From contig NC_087384.1 of assembly GCF_963675165.1 (NCBI RefSeq), positions 4,147,182 through 4,211,181 of the forward strand: 64,000 nt of DNA, read 5' to 3'. A program made the position numbers and the translations under genes. The notes below the pieces were generated by a model. That model did not search any database. It was not told the DNA's origin and saw nothing but the letters and a program-made list of their open reading frames with translations. Positions 1,575 through 12,906 of the stretch are shown piece after piece (position 1 is the stretch's first letter; each line of letters starts with the position of its first letter). Source of the DNA: Halichondria panicea. Its lineage: Eukaryota; Porifera; Demospongiae; Suberitida; Halichondriidae.

Positions 1575-3300
1575 CTATGTTGCTGAGTTCAGTTGATTTG
1601 CAGTTCTGACATAGCCAGATCCATAGGGGGCGGTGTCTTCATGGCTTGACCAACGCTTGAGCGGGCACCACGAATGCACTGGATTGCTGATTTTAGTCCA
1701 TTTCATTGCAAGTAGGGAGGCAAGTCTTTTGTAAAAAACGGTTGCTTCAACTGCAAGACCTCCGGTGGCAGAGAGAACGAGTGGGGTGAATGAGGCATTC
1801 TCAATTTCTCTTATCCTTTCTTTGCTCGTACGCACGTTTTTTTATTAATTCATGTTTGCGGTAGCAGGCTGTAAGGTTGGAGTGAGAATTGGAGGGGGCA
1901 AAAGGGTTGAATACTCTGACATCTAGATATGTTTTTGGAAGCGTCCTCCCCAGAACCCATTTGCAGCGACGTCCAGTCTTGCACCTGGCTGAGAATTAGA
2001 TGTAGCACCTCTGAGCGCTTCTCCAGTGATAGGTTGCAGCTCTGGTTCAATACTAACGTTGCTGCACACCTCATGCGGTTAGGAGGTTAGCAGTCAAGTC
2101 CCTGATTTCATTATGCCTTAGTGAGGGGAAGCCACCCTTAGGGCAGGAGAGGACGTGTTCTACACAGAACTTGGCTCCACAACCACACGATAGCGGGGTG
2201 CGGGTGGGCTGCCAGTTGTACCTAAGAGCTAGAGCATCATGGAATGCTCCCTTGTGTAGCGCAAAGCTGTATTCTTCTATGGGCAGCGAAGTGAGCCAAG
2301 ATGAGGCCCCTTTCTCTTGGGCAAGGGTCATAGAGCGCTTTTGCGAGTGTGTTAGGGATTCACTCAGGTGTTCCGATAACTGTTTGGAATGTTCTCTTCT
2401 CTGAGTGTGCACCTCCAATTTTGCCTTCAGCTGGTGGTCTATTATCTCTGCTGAGTACTGTAGTGAGGGTCTTGCTATAGAATTGCCTCGGTCAGGGGCG
2501 CGGTTATTTTGGTGGAGGAGAGAAACTAAGTGTCAGTGGAGACGGTGGGGTTGGCCAATGCGATGCCACCAAGTCTGGCAGGCAGAGCCAGGAGGTTACG
2601 CTCGATGTCGTTTGGGGGTGGTCTGCCTGTGAGTGCAGGGATCAATTTGGTTCTTATAACTGCTTCCAGAGGGCTTAGGCAATGGCCTAGATTCGGCATT
2701 GTACGAGTGAGATATGACCATTTGCTGCTCATTCCGTGGGTAAACGCAGCATGAGCAGCGTGTGGTTGGCTTTGGGCAATGATTGACAGGAGCTCGAGTT
2801 CGTCAGCCCAGCCCTGAACCTTGTCAGCCACAAATGACTGCATATAGTCTTTAGTACCGAGGGCTGCTCCAAGGTAGGGTCTGTCTTCTGAGGTGACGTT
2901 CACTGCTGTGCCTGCGAAAGCTATTGTTGCAGAATCAAGACAATTCACCTTCGAGAGAAGCCAGGTTTTGCTCGGGTTGGGGAAGTAGCTGAATTTGGGG
3001 CCTATGATATCCCACCATAGACGTAGACTGTTGATTGTCCGAGACCCTGAAGCATCATCTGCATACCAGACTTGATTGATGTCGTTTACATTTTCTTTTA
3101 ATTTGTTGATCAAGGGAACCGTTGCCAGGGCGTACATGGGCATCGCCAATGGGTCTCCTTGAGTGGTTTCTTCCTGACTGATAAGAGTATGTGTCCCCAT
3201 CAACGAACAACTCAGACGGAGCCCTGTAGGTGTTAATGAGGACTGTTGCGAGGGAGGGGCAGAGTCTCACTAAACTTCAATTTAACGCCGAGGGTTTGAA
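1575..3300 (-). mobile_element. dead non-LTR-type retrotransposon relic (reverse transcriptase plus C-terminal nuclease region)
   Basis: Read on the minus strand, 3203-2526 carries reverse transcriptase motifs: TQGDPLAMPMYALA and the catalytic WYADDASG. 2418-2071 continues with a cysteine-histidine cluster (CGCGAKFCVEHVLSC, then GGF and RHNEIRD). 1835-1575 resembles the end of the same protein (ASFTPLVLSATGG, FYKRLASLLAMKW). This layout, RT then a Cys/His motif then a likely restriction-enzyme-like nuclease, belongs to a family I recognise from cnidarian and sponge genomes. The copy is broken: the frame changes near 3200 between LINTYRAPSELFVDG and the QGDP segment, stops lie between 2526 and 2418, and frames shift again near 2075 and 1840. 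The N-terminal half of RT is absent beyond ~3300, as expected of 5' truncation. Confidence 0.8.
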
Positions 3301-4204: not shown

Positions 4205-7200
4205 CTAGGTAGTATCAAGACGAATGGTTCTTATTTTCTTGTTATCGATGAGCACACAGGCTGCTTCGTTGGTAGAACCACAATAGTGAGAAGACGAAAA
4301 AACAGTGAGCAGACGACCACGCTGTTGTATCTGAAAACCAGCTGCCTTGCACTCGTGGGCTCGTATCACATGAGAGAGTCTGTTCCTCTTCAGAAAATCT
4401 TCTAGAGCATCGGAACTACATAGGAAAGACTAATTTATTCTCTCTATCAAATACATGAACGTATAAATACAAGCAGCTTCTCATAAAATAAATTATATTT
4501 ATTTATAGCACCATGCAGGTTTGTTTGAATGGTTCTATGAGTAGCAAAGGGTAGTTGGGCAATGAGTGTCTCTAAGACCGGTCAAGAAGTTATGGCACAC
4601 ATCTACATCATGTATTATACTGTACGTAGATGGTCATACAGGCATGCAGATACACGCGACAAATACATTAGTAAAATTCTGACAATGCCAGTTTTACAGA
4701 CAGAACTCCGAGTATGCACCTGAACATGTGAGCAGTCCCCCTGGCAAAATTGTCAATGAACCCCTTGTTTTCACCGAGATGTACCTCTATAGCAGGGTCA
4801 ATCTCATCACTCCTGCAACCAACAGACTCTCAATTCGACACCACACAATGTTCGTATTCCATACAAAAGGCTACATGTACATGTATGCAAGGCATGCGTA
4901 CCTGATGGGGTCATTCCACATGATGTCCCAGGCCAGGTCGCTCTGGCCCATAGGGTTGGGCAGGTTAGCAGGCACATCGTTGATGGCAGAGATGTACTCC
5001 CTCCCAGGGGATGGGAACGGTATGCCGCCATGGACACAGAACACCTGGGGGCAGACAAACTATCTAACTACAGTCTACAAACTTTAACAATTTACAAGAC
5101 AAAATAATGTACGCATGCTAGCTTCCTAGTCCTCCCCAACATAATATATACCTTGCGGTCAACGACAGCTGCAATAGGCATGTAGTCAAAGGCCTTGTTG
5201 GTTGCCTCCCACACTTCAGCCCCCAGGTCAGCTCCAAACTTCTCCAGACACTCTTCCTTGTAAGAGAACGTCTCTTGAACCTCACGAATTTCATGGTTCC
5301 CTATGTAAGATGGAAGGAAACGTTATCAATTGATCCTCCAAACAAGGTTTTATTGATCATCTTGTTAGTATAACGAGTAGATATGTAAAAATTAATGTAT
5401 CTGGCCACAATTGGGGTGGCGTTGTGAGTGAGATTGATGATGTGTGCATTTCCAGTAGTATTTCTATAGTATTGTACAGTGACAGTAACATAACGCACAG
5501 CACAACACCTACACATGTACCTCTAATGAGTAGGAACTTGGAGGGCATAAGAAGCTTTTGTGCCAGGAGGTAGGCCACCACCTCAAATCCATGAGGACCT
5601 CTGTCCACGTAGTCACCTAGAAACAGGAACGTGGCCGGAGTGAGAATGGGACCCATCCGCCATAGTACTTTTTCGAAGCACACAAGATCGTGAAAGTTCC
5701 CGTGAATGTCACCAAGGACGTAACAAGGGGAAGCAACTTCAAGCAGTCGAGATTCACTCTGAAATATGTCAGCTGCTCTGGTGCAAATCTGTATGAAACA
5801 CTTGGCAACAGATAACATGTCAACAGCACCCCAGGAGAAAGCAGCTTTTGGTTGACCTCGCCCATTGTCTTTGAGAGCATGCTCAAAGTAGCGGAGACCA
5901 GACAGCATCTCATTGGATTTGGATTGCTTCAAGGAGAAAGTTAGAAATTCGCATCAACGTACGCTATATTAACAACGCTATATTAACAACGCTATATTAA
6001 CAACGCTATATTAACAACGCTATATTAACAGTATAATAATAATTACTGTATGTTATACTTGTACTTAGTAATTAACACATGACATTGTATACAGGCAGAC
6101 CAGCAGCCTCCTACAATTTAGAAGCCCTTATACAACTAAGCCAAAACTTAGCTACCACATCACAAATAAGTGTATCGTAAAACTAATGAAGCATACAAAG
6201 ACCTGCAACTCCCTCACCTTATCGAAGGCATTGATAGAGGGCAGTCTGTCGAATCCTGGTCTATCCAAGGCATCTAAACTCCCAGAGATGGCCTCAGTGC
6301 CCATCAGGTCCCACAATGTGGACACATCACTCAAAGCTCCACTACGACGGACCTTCACAAAGTGTGTTGCAATGGTGATATCATCACCATCATCATCTGA
6401 AAGGTCGTCCATATTGTCATCGCTGACAGACGAGGAAAGCTTCCCACTGTTGTCACCACTATTGGACACATCTTCACTCTCAGACTTGCTGTTCAGTTGC
6501 GGCAAAGAAGCTGTGTAGGCGGAATGGGTTGCCTGACAGTTTTTCTATACGGAACTACAATGATTGTATTGTATGCACGACAAACTGCTATTTTTAGAGT
6601 AAGCTGTGCAACTGCACAACTAAATAGCCCCACGCCCACTTCCACTCTTCATTATTGATAGGTCGCTCAGAGTCAGAGGGCCTGGTATCGACTGCTTGCA
6701 CATTAAATAACCATTGGTGAGATTGTTAATATGCTTGTCTCAAAGACTAAGCCATGCATATTCTAGATCTACTACTGTAACAGTGATCTATATAGTTCAC
6801 TATAGAGAGAAGCTAGATCACTGGTTCTGTAGAGCTCGCACAAGCTTATCCCTTTACCACTTCCATCCTCTGTCTCACACCCTGCAAATTGAACCTTCAA
6901 CAGTGTGGCCGAACGGAATGGAAGGTGAAAAAGTAAACCCGGAGGTCTTAAAGCCTTATAAGAGAAAAGAACTGCGATTTGAAATGCAGTCAAATACACA
7001 CACCATATACTTTGTATCAATATTCTCTGTTTCTCTAGCTGGAGCTCTGTGTATGTGATATGGCAATATGAAATTGTGTTCTTTGTTTACGTAAAATGTT
7101 CAGTTTTATGGTCCTTTGCGCACAGTCAGCAGTAGGCTTTTACAAGAGGCGCGTAGCGTTGTAGGCCAAATGTGAAAGATATAACAATTATACTCTCTTG

Positions 7201-10200
7201 ATCAGGTATAACTTACTTGTGTCCATATCTTCTGCTTCATCCTTTATATCAGGTAAGTTAAAGGGTCTCTTCTTAGAGGTAAAAGACGGGCTCACTGGCT
7301 CTGCCATGGTTCGAAGAGGAGAGAGAGCGCGCTGGATAGGGGGAGAGGAGAGACGGAAGAGAACAGAGGTCCCTCGGAACTTTAATTGGCCCACCACCCT
7401 CAGGAACTCATCCAGAGATAGAGTCTCACTCAAGGACACTCCGAAGTGACTGCATAGTTGAGAGAACAGTTAGAGATACATGTACATGTACATGAAATAA
7501 TGTCCACAAGAGACGCTTTCAAGACAATCCTGAGAATGTCCTCACAACTGAGGATATCCCAACAATACTGTTGTAAGACAAGATTTATTCAACTGCATGT
7601 TTGGTTCCACAAATGTATGTACAAACAGTGCATGTACTATTATAACTACTATACACTCGCCTCCAGTTGTCCTTTGCCAGCTTCTCCCAATCTCCCTCCT
7701 TAATGTTGTGTTTCTTCAATCTCACTATGTCCGCTAACATTCTCCTGGAGGTAAGGTTAGCACTCAACCGCAAAATATATGTAGAAAGACATGCACTTTG
7801 ACTTACTACAGCCCTAGGAATGTGATCTAGGGCTGTGTGATGTACGTGCAGTGTACAATATCTCAAGCACAATTATTTGCATAAAAACGTAAGAGTATTC
7901 ACGAGCATAACTCAACTGGGGGAATTTATTCCTAATGGACAATGATATGTACAAGGATATGATTGTACTTGTCACAACAGATGCACCATCTAATAATTAT
8001 ACGCACAAACTCACTGGAAGTCCTGATAATTGAGTCTCTCGAGGCCAGATGTGTTGTAAAACTTAAAGATGTACTGGCAGCGAAACTGTGCACAGAGGTC
8101 ACCATGCACTGTGCGGGGGTCCATCGCTGCTAACCCCACACGGAACTCAGACAGAGATAGTCCAGACTCTACTGGAGGCACTTGCATGGCTCTGCAAAGG
8201 GGAGGAAGATTGTAAAAAGTGCAACGGTATGTAAAACGGCAGTAAAGTCTTACCGTAAACTAGCACATATTCCTTGAAATGTCGTTGAGTATAATATTTG
8301 TACAGAAATATTTAAACAATGAAAAGGCTACAGTATGCACGTGCATACACAAAACTACATATTAACCAATCCAGCCTCAATTAAAGGTAAGTAGAGTGCT
8401 ACACTAGCTTGAATGTACAAATCTTACTTAAAGCATTGAAGGCAGTGCTCAGAGTTGTAGCCCAATTTCGACATGATAGCAGTAAACTGCTCCAGGTTCA
8501 GTTTCCCACCAGGAGAATCACAATGCTCTTGAAACAGCTTCTCTATCTGCTCAGACTCTGAGGAAATACAATCAGAGTAATCTCAGTGACCACCAAGTCA
8601 GTCACCTCACTTGTTGGTCACCATCACAGTACTAAACATGCTTACATTACATGTACAAAGATTTGGAAACTATTTAGTACCATATTCTACTGAGATTACG
8701 CCCACATCTGAAATTACGGCTGACCCCTCCAAGCTTTTGAGCGAAAGTTCCTGGGCTAATTTGCTTCAAGAATACGCTCACTAGGAAGTGAGGCAATCTT
8801 GAGTAGTTGTCAATAGCAGTTTATTGTGTCAGCCGGTTAGCTCTGAAGACTAGATTTGGCCAATAATTATTGCTCCTGTTTGCATAGGACAATGACAATC
8901 TTCTCTGAATCTCTATTCACGTGACAAGGAGGAACCTTCTGACGCGCAGACTCACTGAACTTGTATACTTTTTATACCTAGCTACTTTACCCATGCATTA
9001 CAACTGTTGTATATATTGATGTATTAAGCGCTCGGACTGACAAAAAATACTTAAGTTAATGAGTGGGCGTAATTTCGAGGCAAAAACCTGGGTGGGTGTA
9101 ATATTATTGAGCCAAAACTGCAGTTTTCGAAATTAAGCCTATCCCACCTGTAGCTGCAGTGTAACATGCAATTAGGGTGAGTGTAATTTCGGTAGAATAC
9201 GGTAATTACTTTGAGGCAAATCCAAAGAAAAACATGGGCGTTGGTGATTGGGCTTATTTTGAGAGCTAACTTTGAGTGCTCGCAACTGTAGTTGGGATCG
9301 TCCAATTGTGGCAAAAACTTCATTCACATACATAATTATATGACTGTACTATATACGTACATACAGTAGGACAGAAAAAAGTTATCCTGCCTCAAGTAAG
9401 GGTGTGTACAAGCACACCTCTACCACAATAGCTTCTGTATGCTGGCACACAAACAAGAACATTCTCGATGTACAGCTTGCGAACAAGAACTGACCAAATA
9501 TTCCGTATCCAGCTTGTGTGAGCATCTGTTCCTCCAGTGAAGTACCTCTGTTGAACTGAGGCCTTAGGTTCTTGAGTGAACCCTCACTCCTCCCGTCTCC
9601 CTCTGTCCCTTCCAGAACACCAGTCGGACACAGGTTACCAATGGCAACTGAAAAATACCAATAAGCTACATGTAAGGAACAGTTACACACCACTATATTG
9701 TTTTACATGCACTAGATAGCCTCAGCATAACTGCAAAACATGGCCAATGATCAGACACATGCATGAGCAATGTTATTACTTATGGTCAATGTACAAACGT
9801 ATAGTATTTATGTATCACTCAGTCAGCCAGGCATAAGGCTTAGAACCACACTTAGCTACAGTATTATCATGACATGAATTATGTTCTTGACTCACTAACC
9901 TCCAGATTCAACCTTCTTTATAAGTTTCACAATACTGAAGTTGGGTAGTTGCTTGGCTTGATGTGGTGTGAACCATTTTATCTTGACCTTGGGGACCTCA
10001 GGAAAGCTGCCTCGACCAGGCCTCTGCTCAGCATAGTATGTCACTGTACATTTCCTAAGGCCATTGCAGTTGCGGTGCTGAATGTTCACAATGCCAAGGA
10101 TCTCGGCATCAATGCACACAACCTGTAAGTGAAAAGCGACAATAGGTTTGATTTCAATACACAATTTTAAAGACCTCTTTCAGACATGTCTGTGCAGCAC

Positions 10201-10327
10201 TGTGAAAGTTTTCATCCTCTCCAAGCTTGCTGGAGGGCAGATACAGTTTAGAAGATTCTTCTACAAACAAGTATCCACTCTTTCCTTTGATGATCAATTG
10301 GCTCTGATCTCCTAGTCCTACATCCAT
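4205..10327 (-). CDS. Nudix-like / EF-hand-like / PPP-family protein phosphatase, 13 exons
   Basis: Exons: 10327-10163, 10122-9900, 9647-9495, 8557-8428, 8191-8015, 7744-7661, 7449-7217, 6510-6218, 5926-5521, 5300-5152, 5044-4902, 4812-4720, 4415-4205. All phases close, giving about 819 residues. Residues ~20-125 resemble a Nudix fold: the 23-residue Nudix-box spacing is kept ([13 protein letters not shown]) but the catalytic RE and EE become TC and EV, so hydrolase activity is doubtful. Residues ~180-310 hold degenerate EF-hand-like segments lacking most calcium ligands. ~400-450 is acidic and serine-rich. ~500-819 is a PPP phosphatase with GDIHGN, GDYVDRG, RGNHE, HGG, RAHE and SSSHYCG, so metal ligands and catalytic histidine are kept. 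The first in-frame ATG is used; an upstream exon is possible. Intron 6 appears to be GC-AG. Confidence 0.85.
5958..6030. repeat. tandem repeat, 14-bp unit, about five copies
   Basis: The unit AACGCTATATTAAC repeats about five times with little change. It lies in the intron between the acidic linker exon (6510-6218) and the first catalytic exon (5926-5521) of the phosphatase gene. It ends about 30 bp upstream of that exon's acceptor side. Confidence 0.85.
8680..9202. mobile_element. CCGTAT-type MITE, 523 bp, in a phosphatase intron
   Basis: The left end CCATATTCTACTGAGATTAC and the right end, read in reverse complement as CCGTATTCTACCGAAATTAC, form an inverted repeat of about 25 bp, bounded by TA on both sides. 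Internal copies of the 'AATTACGCCCAC' theme also occur. It lies between phosphatase exons 9495 and 8557. No transposase frame is present. Confidence 0.6.
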
Positions 10328-10506: not shown

Positions 10507-12906
10507 ATGGCCTCATCACTCGAACTCGATCAATATCTTGGGTTTTACAGAGAAGCTTTAGCTAATCATGAAGATCATATTTTAGATACACTCAAAGGAA
10601 TGGTGTGGATCAATAAGCTAACTAGATTGAAACCAAAAGCTCTCACTCAAGACGAGTTAAAGAGCATCACGACACATTACGATGGTAATTTTGCTGCTCA
10701 AGCCAAAGGAATTATCACTTTAATCAGAGAGAAGGACACCTTAGATTGTTACATAGGACTCAGTAGGGCTCTCTGTGATTCGACGAAATTCAAAACCAAC
10801 GAGGTGTTCCCGTTTATGGCTGATTTGAAACGAACTGGGAGACATCCCCCAATTGAAAGAGTTGTAGGAGTTGCAGCAGGTTAGTAGACATAGGTGGATA
10901 GTTGCACTGTCAATTTATTAACGTACGCATAATGATCGTACACGTTCATAAGCCCACAAAACAATATAAAGTCATAAATAGGGGGGATATCTCTTCCCCA
11001 TTATATACCTAGATACGTAGAATTAGTGTATTAGATCAAGATGGAATTTGCACAGGTTTACTCTATCTTTGTGTTTGTGCAGGAGGAAAACATACTCAAC
11101 AAATACCCAATGCTAACATTCTCTGGCTAATTCAGTCCAGAGAAGACTTTGACAAAATCCCCTCTCTACTTACATGTATGTCACATGATCCCAGTAACAT
11201 AACAAGAATTTGCAACTTCTTGGTAAAGGTATGTACATTACAACAGAAGGCGTCTCCATTACTATTATACATGCAACCGCTGTGCTGTAATTATGTTCTC
11301 GATAGCCTATGGTTAATAGTGGACTTAGCTTTATCTTGTGTCCTGTTGGCTATCACACTTGTGTTGCATTTACAAATAACTTACACGTGAGTGATGGCCA
11401 TTGTGGGACAAGCATGTTGCATTATGAATCGTATACCATGTTACTATCAATATACAATGTACTTAAGCCCTTGCTATAAGCTGGTAGATGGCTGTTGTAT
11501 ATTCTTCTTTTTTCCAGACTGTCTCTATCAAAGTGGAGGTTTGTCCAGGAAGCTCAGAGTGCATTGATGTAGCTATAAACCTTGCCTGTCCACCTGAAGC
11601 TGAACCCATTTCCGGACCCAGTTGTAAAGCTTTTCTTTCAAGACTCAGTCCTCAACCTCGTCTAGTTCTTCTGACAGCTGCTGGTACACCTATAGGACGT
11701 GACCCTCATGGTGACTTGGTGGTGGTGATGCGAGGAGAGCCCACCACCATCTGTGCTGAAGTGGAGCACGTCACAGCATTGTGGAGACTTGATAGAGGAC
11801 ACAAACATAAAGAAGCGGTGAGTACTCCTCTCTGTTAGTGCATGCACGTTCAGGGACTCATACCGTAGTGCTAGAAATAATTAGTTTGGCCAATTTTAGG
11901 CTCGATCCGAAAACATTATGCCTGCAATCAACCTTTCCTCGATTAAAAGCCGCGATTTCATGTATAATTATAGTTGCTTACATTATAGTTTGTATCGCGC
12001 GTACATTCCTATAGCACTACAGTCTACCTACTACAGTCTACCTACTACCCTCATTCTATAATTATGTGATTTCTCTTGCACTGCCATCACAGTGCATGTC
12101 ATTTAATTTGTTTTGTTTGTAGAGCAGTATAAAAAGCCATTTTGTCGTTATTTTCTGTATAATAGTAAACTCTCATTAATTAATTCACCGGCAGTGCAGC
12201 TTGGCCGAAATATAGTGTGGTGGCTGCATTTCAGAAAATATCTGCAGCGAAAAATGGCCCTGCCTCGAATCTAAGGACTAATTTTGCAGTTCTGTTTCGA
12301 AGACAATGAAACATTATGCTCTCTATATTTAAGTAATCCAATTTTTTTTCTGCCAAACCACATGCACCCAAAACGTACGTCATCTAGCCGTAATAAATTA
12401 CATGTATACGGAATAGCGAGTGGCCGCATTTCAGGGTGAGTTTTTGCAGTAAACATCGATAGCTTAGCTATAGCTAGCAATCCGTGCCAAACCAAATGAC
12501 CAGCATATATCGAGGCCATTCTTCAGGGAGCCTGAATATAATAATATAGCGAGGGTCTACTGTAATTGATAATTATAGGTGGCTTGCTATTCATTCATTT
12601 GCTGCAGTACATATATATTATTATTTATATACAACGTTATAATTAAGCAATAGTGTTCTATAATAACAGCTGTATAAAATGTTTTCTTTACAGAACACCT
12701 GCATCACTTTTGGAAGAGCCACAAGCAAGCCCTCTCATGATGACCCTGACGTTGTGGTGAGCTCAAAAGAGGTTGTCAGTTTCTACAATGAAGCTGACAA
12801 ATTGAACATTGCTACCCTAGCTGTTGCATATCGAGACAATCACAGAAGTTATTTAGAGTATTGCAGCAAACTTGTTCACTACTTCTCTAAAAAGTTTCTC
12901 GAGTAA
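10507..12906 (+). CDS. CARD-domain protein, four exons, 343 residues
   Basis: Exons: 10507-10879, 11083-11228, 11518-11817, 12694-12906; all phases agree and the stop is TAA. Residues ~5-110 show a CARD-like six-helix pattern: the WINKLTRLKPKALTQDEL helix pair, then NFAAQAKGIITLIREKDTLD and YIGLSRALCDST, which match the CARD themes 'L-x-E-E' and 'A-x-x-L-L-x-x-L-x-x-K'. The other ~230 residues match no domain I recognise. One segment (LWLIQSREDFDKIPSLL) and a beta-rich exon (SIKVEVCPGSSECIDVAINLACP) suggest a folded module. CARDs recruit caspases or kinases by homotypic contact, so an adaptor or sensor role is inferred. It shares a promoter with the phosphatase gene. Confidence 0.7.

Follow-up and report, generated by a model that had tools for sequence, protein, structure and literature searches.

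The locus on the minus strand between positions 10327 and 4205 of a 64,000-nucleotide stretch of the Halichondria panicea genome (the window) raises the question of whether a PPP phosphatase, a set of EF-hand-like units and a degenerate Nudix domain are encoded on one chain, or whether this arrangement results from wrongly joined exons or from a chance resemblance at the N-terminus. Translation of this strand bears out the original prediction that 13 exons join in phase into one protein, with a single stop codon located at its end (Table 1). The predicted length of 819 residues is not retained: the model chosen here gives 815, and the four additional residues belong to an alternative donor of exon 1, at which ATT is followed by GTGTAT. 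The two exon 1 donors both score poorly (-2.8 and -3.6) on a hand-written donor matrix, and the 815-residue form fits the Nudix profile described below at 10.3 bits versus 6.4 bits for the 819-residue form. Eleven of the 12 introns are GT-AG. Intron 6 (window 7450-7660, minus strand) is GC-AG, its donor reading GAG before the junction and GCGAGT after it; splicing at the GT that lies 4 bases downstream would cause a frameshift. We infer that exons 1-13 lie on a single transcript, and consider it reasonably probable that they constitute one gene, in which a C-terminal PPP domain stands behind a pseudo-Nudix domain (approximately residues 8-125), four degenerate EF-like units (176-335) and an acidic linker. 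Small corrections aside, the original observation is confirmed, and the interpretation attached to it is supported in part.

Table 1. Exons of the phosphatase gene and the repeat in its third intron (window coordinates).
Feature	Position	Strand	Content
Exon 1	10175..10327	-	Start codon, first Nudix-like part, most of the Nudix-like box; residues 1-51
Exon 2	9900..10122	-	Second Nudix-like part; residues 52-125
Exon 3	9495..9647	-	Linker; about residues 126-177
Exon 4	8428..8557	-	EF-hand-like unit 1, LNLEQF at 196
Exon 5	8015..8191	-	EF-hand-like units 2 and 3, LSLSEF at 231 and LNYQDF at 273
Exon 6	7661..7744	-	Between EF-hand-like units 3 and 4; GC-AG intron next
Exon 7	7217..7449	-	EF-hand-like unit 4, LSLDEF at 317; linker begins
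Exon 8	6218..6510	-	Acidic, serine-rich linker
Exon 9	5521..5926	-	Start of PPP domain, GDIHG and GDYVDRG
Exon 10	5152..5300	-	PPP, GNHE; Gly codon split over the exon 9-10 join
Exon 11	4902..5044	-	PPP, HGG
Exon 12	4720..4812	-	PPP
Exon 13	4205..4415	-	PPP, RAHEC and HYCGST, stop codon
Dispersed repeat in intron 3	8680..9220	.	Genome-wide match rows

The claim of a complete PPP domain is upheld, as every catalytic motif of the set GDxHG, GDxVDRG, GNHE, HGG and RxHE is present and in order (GDIHG at residue 554, GDYVDRG at 586, GNHE at 618, HGG at 672 within a VHGG at 671, and RAHE at 764) and the C-terminal domain matches Pfam Metallophos with an E-value of 6.2e-31. The phosphatase domain is probably working. 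A Pfam match to SAM_EPH at 749-764 (E = 0.0086) is below the cut-off and falls inside the PPP domain, and was taken as chance; a search of PHROGs returned a single row (E = 0.3).

With a threshold of E = 0.001 the protein has 93 distinct matching sequences in the PDB, and the following comparisons rest on the best 60 of these 93. Among them, the best single-stretch match is BSU1 (9tp7, 179 bits), with a second BSU1 entry at 173 bits (9tp8), while the best single stretch outside BSU1 is that of calcineurin 9chu, at 157 bits; another calcineurin entry, 9b9g, tops the ranking only via the sum of two stretches (150 + 58 bits). The BSU1/BSL (PPKL) phosphatases also share with the query a cysteine after RAHE (C768 of the query, in RAHEC) and another in YCG (C791, in HYCG). 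We equate C768 and C791 with sites 6 and 8, a placement on the query that is our own reading. Table 2 of PMC10214084 covers eight PPP types, and BSU1 is the single one among them with cysteine at both site 6 and site 8. At the positions of the tree alignment that would correspond to toxin sites 2 and 3, the Met and Tyr of BSU1 are replaced in the query by Thr and Lys. As differences from the kelch phosphatases of this group, Pfam finds no kelch in the query, and a small PPP tree does not group the two: the query is on a long branch, and BSU1 groups with PP1 (0.872) and not with the query. This tree was built from partial paralogues (72-246 residues each) that were assembled out of tblastn pieces with an E-value limit of 0.1, or 0.3 for one locus, with stop-containing pieces dropped and labels assigned by eye, and it settles nothing on the BSU1 relationship. 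The PDB matches and paired cysteines support a PPP domain nearest to BSU1, and the query itself is at most a candidate BSU1.

The same genome carries a second divergent PPP (L179, G000:C10:6610000-6613200), of which one exon (99 residues) is nearest to calcineurin, at 92 bits in a single stretch versus 75 for PP2A, and in which an insertion follows RGNHE. A search of the whole protein against its own genome at E up to 10 gave 29 rows, 13 of them its own exons; since the 16 others are confined to residues 520-801, this search detected neither the Nudix-like nor the EF-like region a second time in the genome.

Between the N-terminal region and the phosphatase, residues 176-335 comprise four EF-hand-like units from which most calcium ligands have been lost, much as had been proposed from the sequence alone; a Pfam match below cut-off, readings of the loops and a fourfold pattern all support this description. 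The Pfam match is to EF-hand_6 at 259-283, with an E-value of 0.00059 for a 234-residue piece and 0.022 for the full chain, both under the curated cut-off. The pattern [LIVM]xxx[DEQN]F, which represents EF loop positions 8, 12 and 13, is found at 196, 231, 273 and 317 and nowhere else in the protein, all four sites lying within 196-322, and shuffles of residues 176-335 reached four occurrences in 36 of 20,000 trials. It may be that calcium is still bound by these units and acts as a switch for the enzyme, and both their number and the acid found at loop position 12 in three of the four (Q, E, D and E in units 1-4, by eye) would favor a calcium-regulated phosphatase. However, positions 1, 3 and 5 read C-S-G, V-P-E, N-S-L and G-S-S, again by eye, and the canonical ligand set at positions 1, 3, 5 and 12 is complete in no unit. 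Conventional calcium binding is unlikely, and we regard calcium control of the phosphatase as improbable. The linker that follows is acidic and serine-rich, with 18 Asp+Glu, 6 Lys+Arg and 17 Ser in the 86 residues from 385 to 470.

The N-terminal region requires more discussion. The Nudix box is as originally described, with its 23-residue spacing at residues 33-55, the first glutamate kept (E39), the RE pair replaced by T47-C48, the EE pair by E51-V52, and S33 and C54 in place of the glycines. Only E39 and E51 therefore remain as consensus in the catalytic box G-x5-E-x7-R-E-U-x-E-E-x-G-U, and because S33, T47, C48, V52 and C54 replace G, R, E, E and G, this would not be a typical Nudix hydrolase, if it is Nudix at all. 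Searches with residues 1-139 at a threshold of E = 10 gave no Nudix hit in Pfam, in NCBIfam or, by phmmer, in the PDB. A Pfam search of the joined protein, which had been suggested as a check, recovered the phosphatase as Metallophos and the middle region as a sub-cut-off EF-hand_6, and no Nudix domain. It is thus conceivable that the N-terminus is a non-Nudix segment of some other fold, with a box picked out by eye and a chance match to the later strands of a Nudix profile; the silence of the libraries would agree with this, as would the fact that the Nudix hypothesis was itself chosen by eye out of many families.

A more sensitive comparison was made with a custom profile of 65 bacterial Nudix segments, which were kept after a redundancy cut from 69 full-box segments originating from 88 loci. 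Residues 1-139 score 10.3 bits against this profile (E = 2.5e-5 for one test, with filters off), and the full 815-residue chain only 6.0 bits. Scaled to the 24,736 models of Pfam, the single-test E-value becomes approximately 0.6, which fits the silence of that library. Several observations stand against a chance match. Query and profile align collinearly from profile position 41 to 125; no shuffle of residues 1-139 reached 10.3 bits in 3,000 trials and then in 20,000; and six models built from random half-sets agree, with E-values of 3.5e-7 to 1.1e-4 and none of 20,000 shuffles reaching the score of each. Nor does any of 1,074 overlapping E. coli windows, taken from four chromosome stretches, reach this score, the best being 6.4 bits. 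By hhalign, the local score is 29.3 with a probability of 67 (23 in global mode), compared with local scores of at most 19.0 in 200 shuffles and at most 23.8 in 150 of 283 E. coli decoys. Both the decoys and the 1,074 windows were cut from open frames of at least 200 residues, annotated or not. A first negative set, of whose 353 windows 19 equalled or exceeded the score of the query (top score 65 bits), had been drawn with a loose filter from the window itself as well as from loci chosen because they contain Nudix genes; we regarded it as contaminated, and for that reason replaced it with the E. coli chromosome windows. The profile itself recovers seven of nine Pfam-NUDIX loci of the same genome at 32 to 50 bits and misses two (L007, L009 at 4.4 bits), and of 17 later windows of the query protein the 12 reported all score -1.6 or less.

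It is exon 2 that carries the signal, chiefly in the part beyond the box. Taken by itself, exon 2 scores 8.4 bits, which 1 of 5,000 shuffles reached, and residues 1-125 score 10.7 bits, again reached by 1 of 5,000. Exon 1 alone, with box residues 33-51, scores -2.0 bits, a value reached by 1,475 of 5,000 shuffles, and this distribution of the signal speaks for a non-Nudix segment. Swapping the order of the two exons lowers the score from 10.7 to 6.5 bits, which speaks against one. The claim of a degenerate Nudix domain has therefore fared unevenly: it stands in tests with our own profile and their controls, while the region lies below detection by Pfam and NCBIfam and its first exon is silent when taken alone. 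On balance of these comparisons we think it quite likely that the N-terminal region has a Nudix fold, and a degenerate Nudix domain at the N-terminus is likely, not proven; an unrelated fold with a chance match seems unlikely, if worth keeping in mind.

A different objection is that exons 1-3 form a separate small gene, that the phosphatase begins at exon 4 or later, and that the fusion is an artefact of joining. Intron 3 is the longest intron (937 bases), the frame of exon 3 is open past its donor as far as 9382, and the coding scores of exons 1 and 2 are modest. With codon usage trained on exons 4-13, exons 1, 2 and 3 score 0.098, 0.075 and 0.209, compared with 88 intron windows that average -0.133 and reach 0.156 at most; exons 1 and 2 are not beyond this null, since both are below the highest intron window. 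The same training nevertheless selects the right frame for all three of these exons, and in a leave-one-out analysis of codon usage each of the 13 exons scores best in its own frame. Phases also agree over the exon 3-4 join, and over half of intron 3 is occupied by a dispersed repeat of approximately 540 bases, so the length of this intron needs no second gene. We consider two separate genes an improbable explanation, and continue with the reading of one gene. Elsewhere in the genome this repeat yields at least 44 match rows at 66-93% identity, based on the scoring of 40 among 178 candidates, and some rows are fragments of a single copy; it has weak inverted repeats, and looks like a non-autonomous transposon.

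Two other features are present nearby in the window. On the minus strand at 2071-3266 there are open frames with a reverse-transcriptase-like stretch, WYADDASG; a Pfam search with the frame at 2529-3266 returned nothing at a threshold of E = 0.1. On the plus strand, an open frame at 10507-10884, with one Pfam row below cut-off, is head to head with the phosphatase gene, their start codons being 180 bases apart, and a promoter region common to both is possible.

The combination of EF-hands and a PPP domain is not in itself new. The PPEF/RdgC phosphatases, like the query, have both in one chain. In PPEF the EF-hands are C-terminal to the PPP domain; the query differs in that its EF-like units (196-322) precede the PPP motifs (554-767 of 815), and its chain ends 48 residues past RAHE. 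A closer comparison is found in section 8 of PMC8249667, which describes kelch-less, EF-hand-bearing Bsu1 phosphatases from Thecamonas, Monosiga, Salpingoeca, Basidiobolus and Nannochloropsis, that is, from two choanoflagellates, Thecamonas, a fungus and a stramenopile. Within the literature searched, EF-hand phosphatases of the Bsu1 type are described in this one survey only. They combine EF-hands with PPP in one chain, as the query does with its EF-hand-like units, and because the PPP domain of the query is nearest to the BSU1 type, the query is probably a relative of these phosphatases. The comparison is by description only, and that section mentions no Nudix domain and leaves the domain order unstated. 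The original statement that no characterised PPP phosphatase has this order must accordingly be narrowed, since section 8 of PMC8249667 already reports EF-hands with PPP; its Nudix part stands, in that we found no Nudix-PPP fusion in the literature searched (titles and abstract openings among the papers listed, with subscription journals mostly outside), and a search for literature combining Nudix, EF-hand and PPP phosphatase gave no match. An EF-hand PPP of Bsu1 type is thus already known, and the Nudix part is newly noticed. In the relevant part of the TriTryp phosphatome, some kinetoplastid PPPs are also described as resembling BSU1 types (PMC2175518). Ilborin, a sponge EF-hand protein, was set aside, as the section describing it (PMC8864356) gives it a TIM barrel and no phosphatase domain. 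Queries with exons 9, 2 and 13 found no relatives in viral contigs, nor did exon 9 in genome contigs; the collections searched are viral or prokaryotic, and absence there consequently says nothing about animals.

The closest working parallel lies outside the phosphatases, in CCAR1 and CCAR2/DBC1. According to PMC4287135, the Nudix domain of these proteins is catalytically inactive and stands ahead of an EF-hand that probably does not bind calcium, and in PMC10474295 the Nudix domain of CCAR2 binds NAD+, which controls its binding of PARP1. They would share with the query this pair of an inactive Nudix domain and an EF-hand, and differ from it in being without a phosphatase. Pfam DBC1 (PF14443) is absent among the matches of the query at E up to 10, and searching the genome with the DBC1 family gave no signal, though none came from its 14 controls either. 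Two further proteins with Nudix domains, KRIT1 and NUDT16L1 (SDOS/TIRR), are not known to have a phosphatase or EF-hand. Their likeness to the query would be in a Nudix domain without hydrolase activity that is thought or shown to bind partners, according to the relevant portions of PMC7729028 for KRIT1 and PMC6294507 for NUDT16L1. More generally, non-catalytic Nudix domains are described in the main text of PMC5389931 as typically occurring in multidomain proteins and binding small molecules or protein domains; calcineurin, EF-hand and protein phosphatase have zero occurrences in that main text.

Among the phosphatases, the pertinent part of PMC10214084 has the accessory domains of PP5, PPEF and Bsu1 sharing in regulation. 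By analogy, we suggest that the pseudo-Nudix domain of the query would not hydrolyse a substrate, that it and the EF-like units may bind proteins or ligands, and that the modules, once bound, could place the phosphatase or hold it back, with calcium presumably not the main signal. A bolder speculation is that a nucleotide or similar ligand (e.g. NAD+, ADP-ribose or Ap4A) occupies the pseudo-Nudix domain and that its binding lifts or imposes inhibition by way of a calcium-blind EF lobe; we consider this specific version doubtful. Such a metabolite sensor, were it to exist, would tie the dephosphorylation of proteins to nucleotide state inside a single polypeptide.

Should both the Nudix fold and the single transcript hold, this sponge would have a PPP phosphatase that retains two inactivated domains, presumably for binding. 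EF-hand phosphatases of the Bsu1 type could then carry an extra domain that is missed by standard profile libraries, and the pair of inactive Nudix domain and inactive EF-hand known from CCAR1/DBC1 would recur in a phosphatase.
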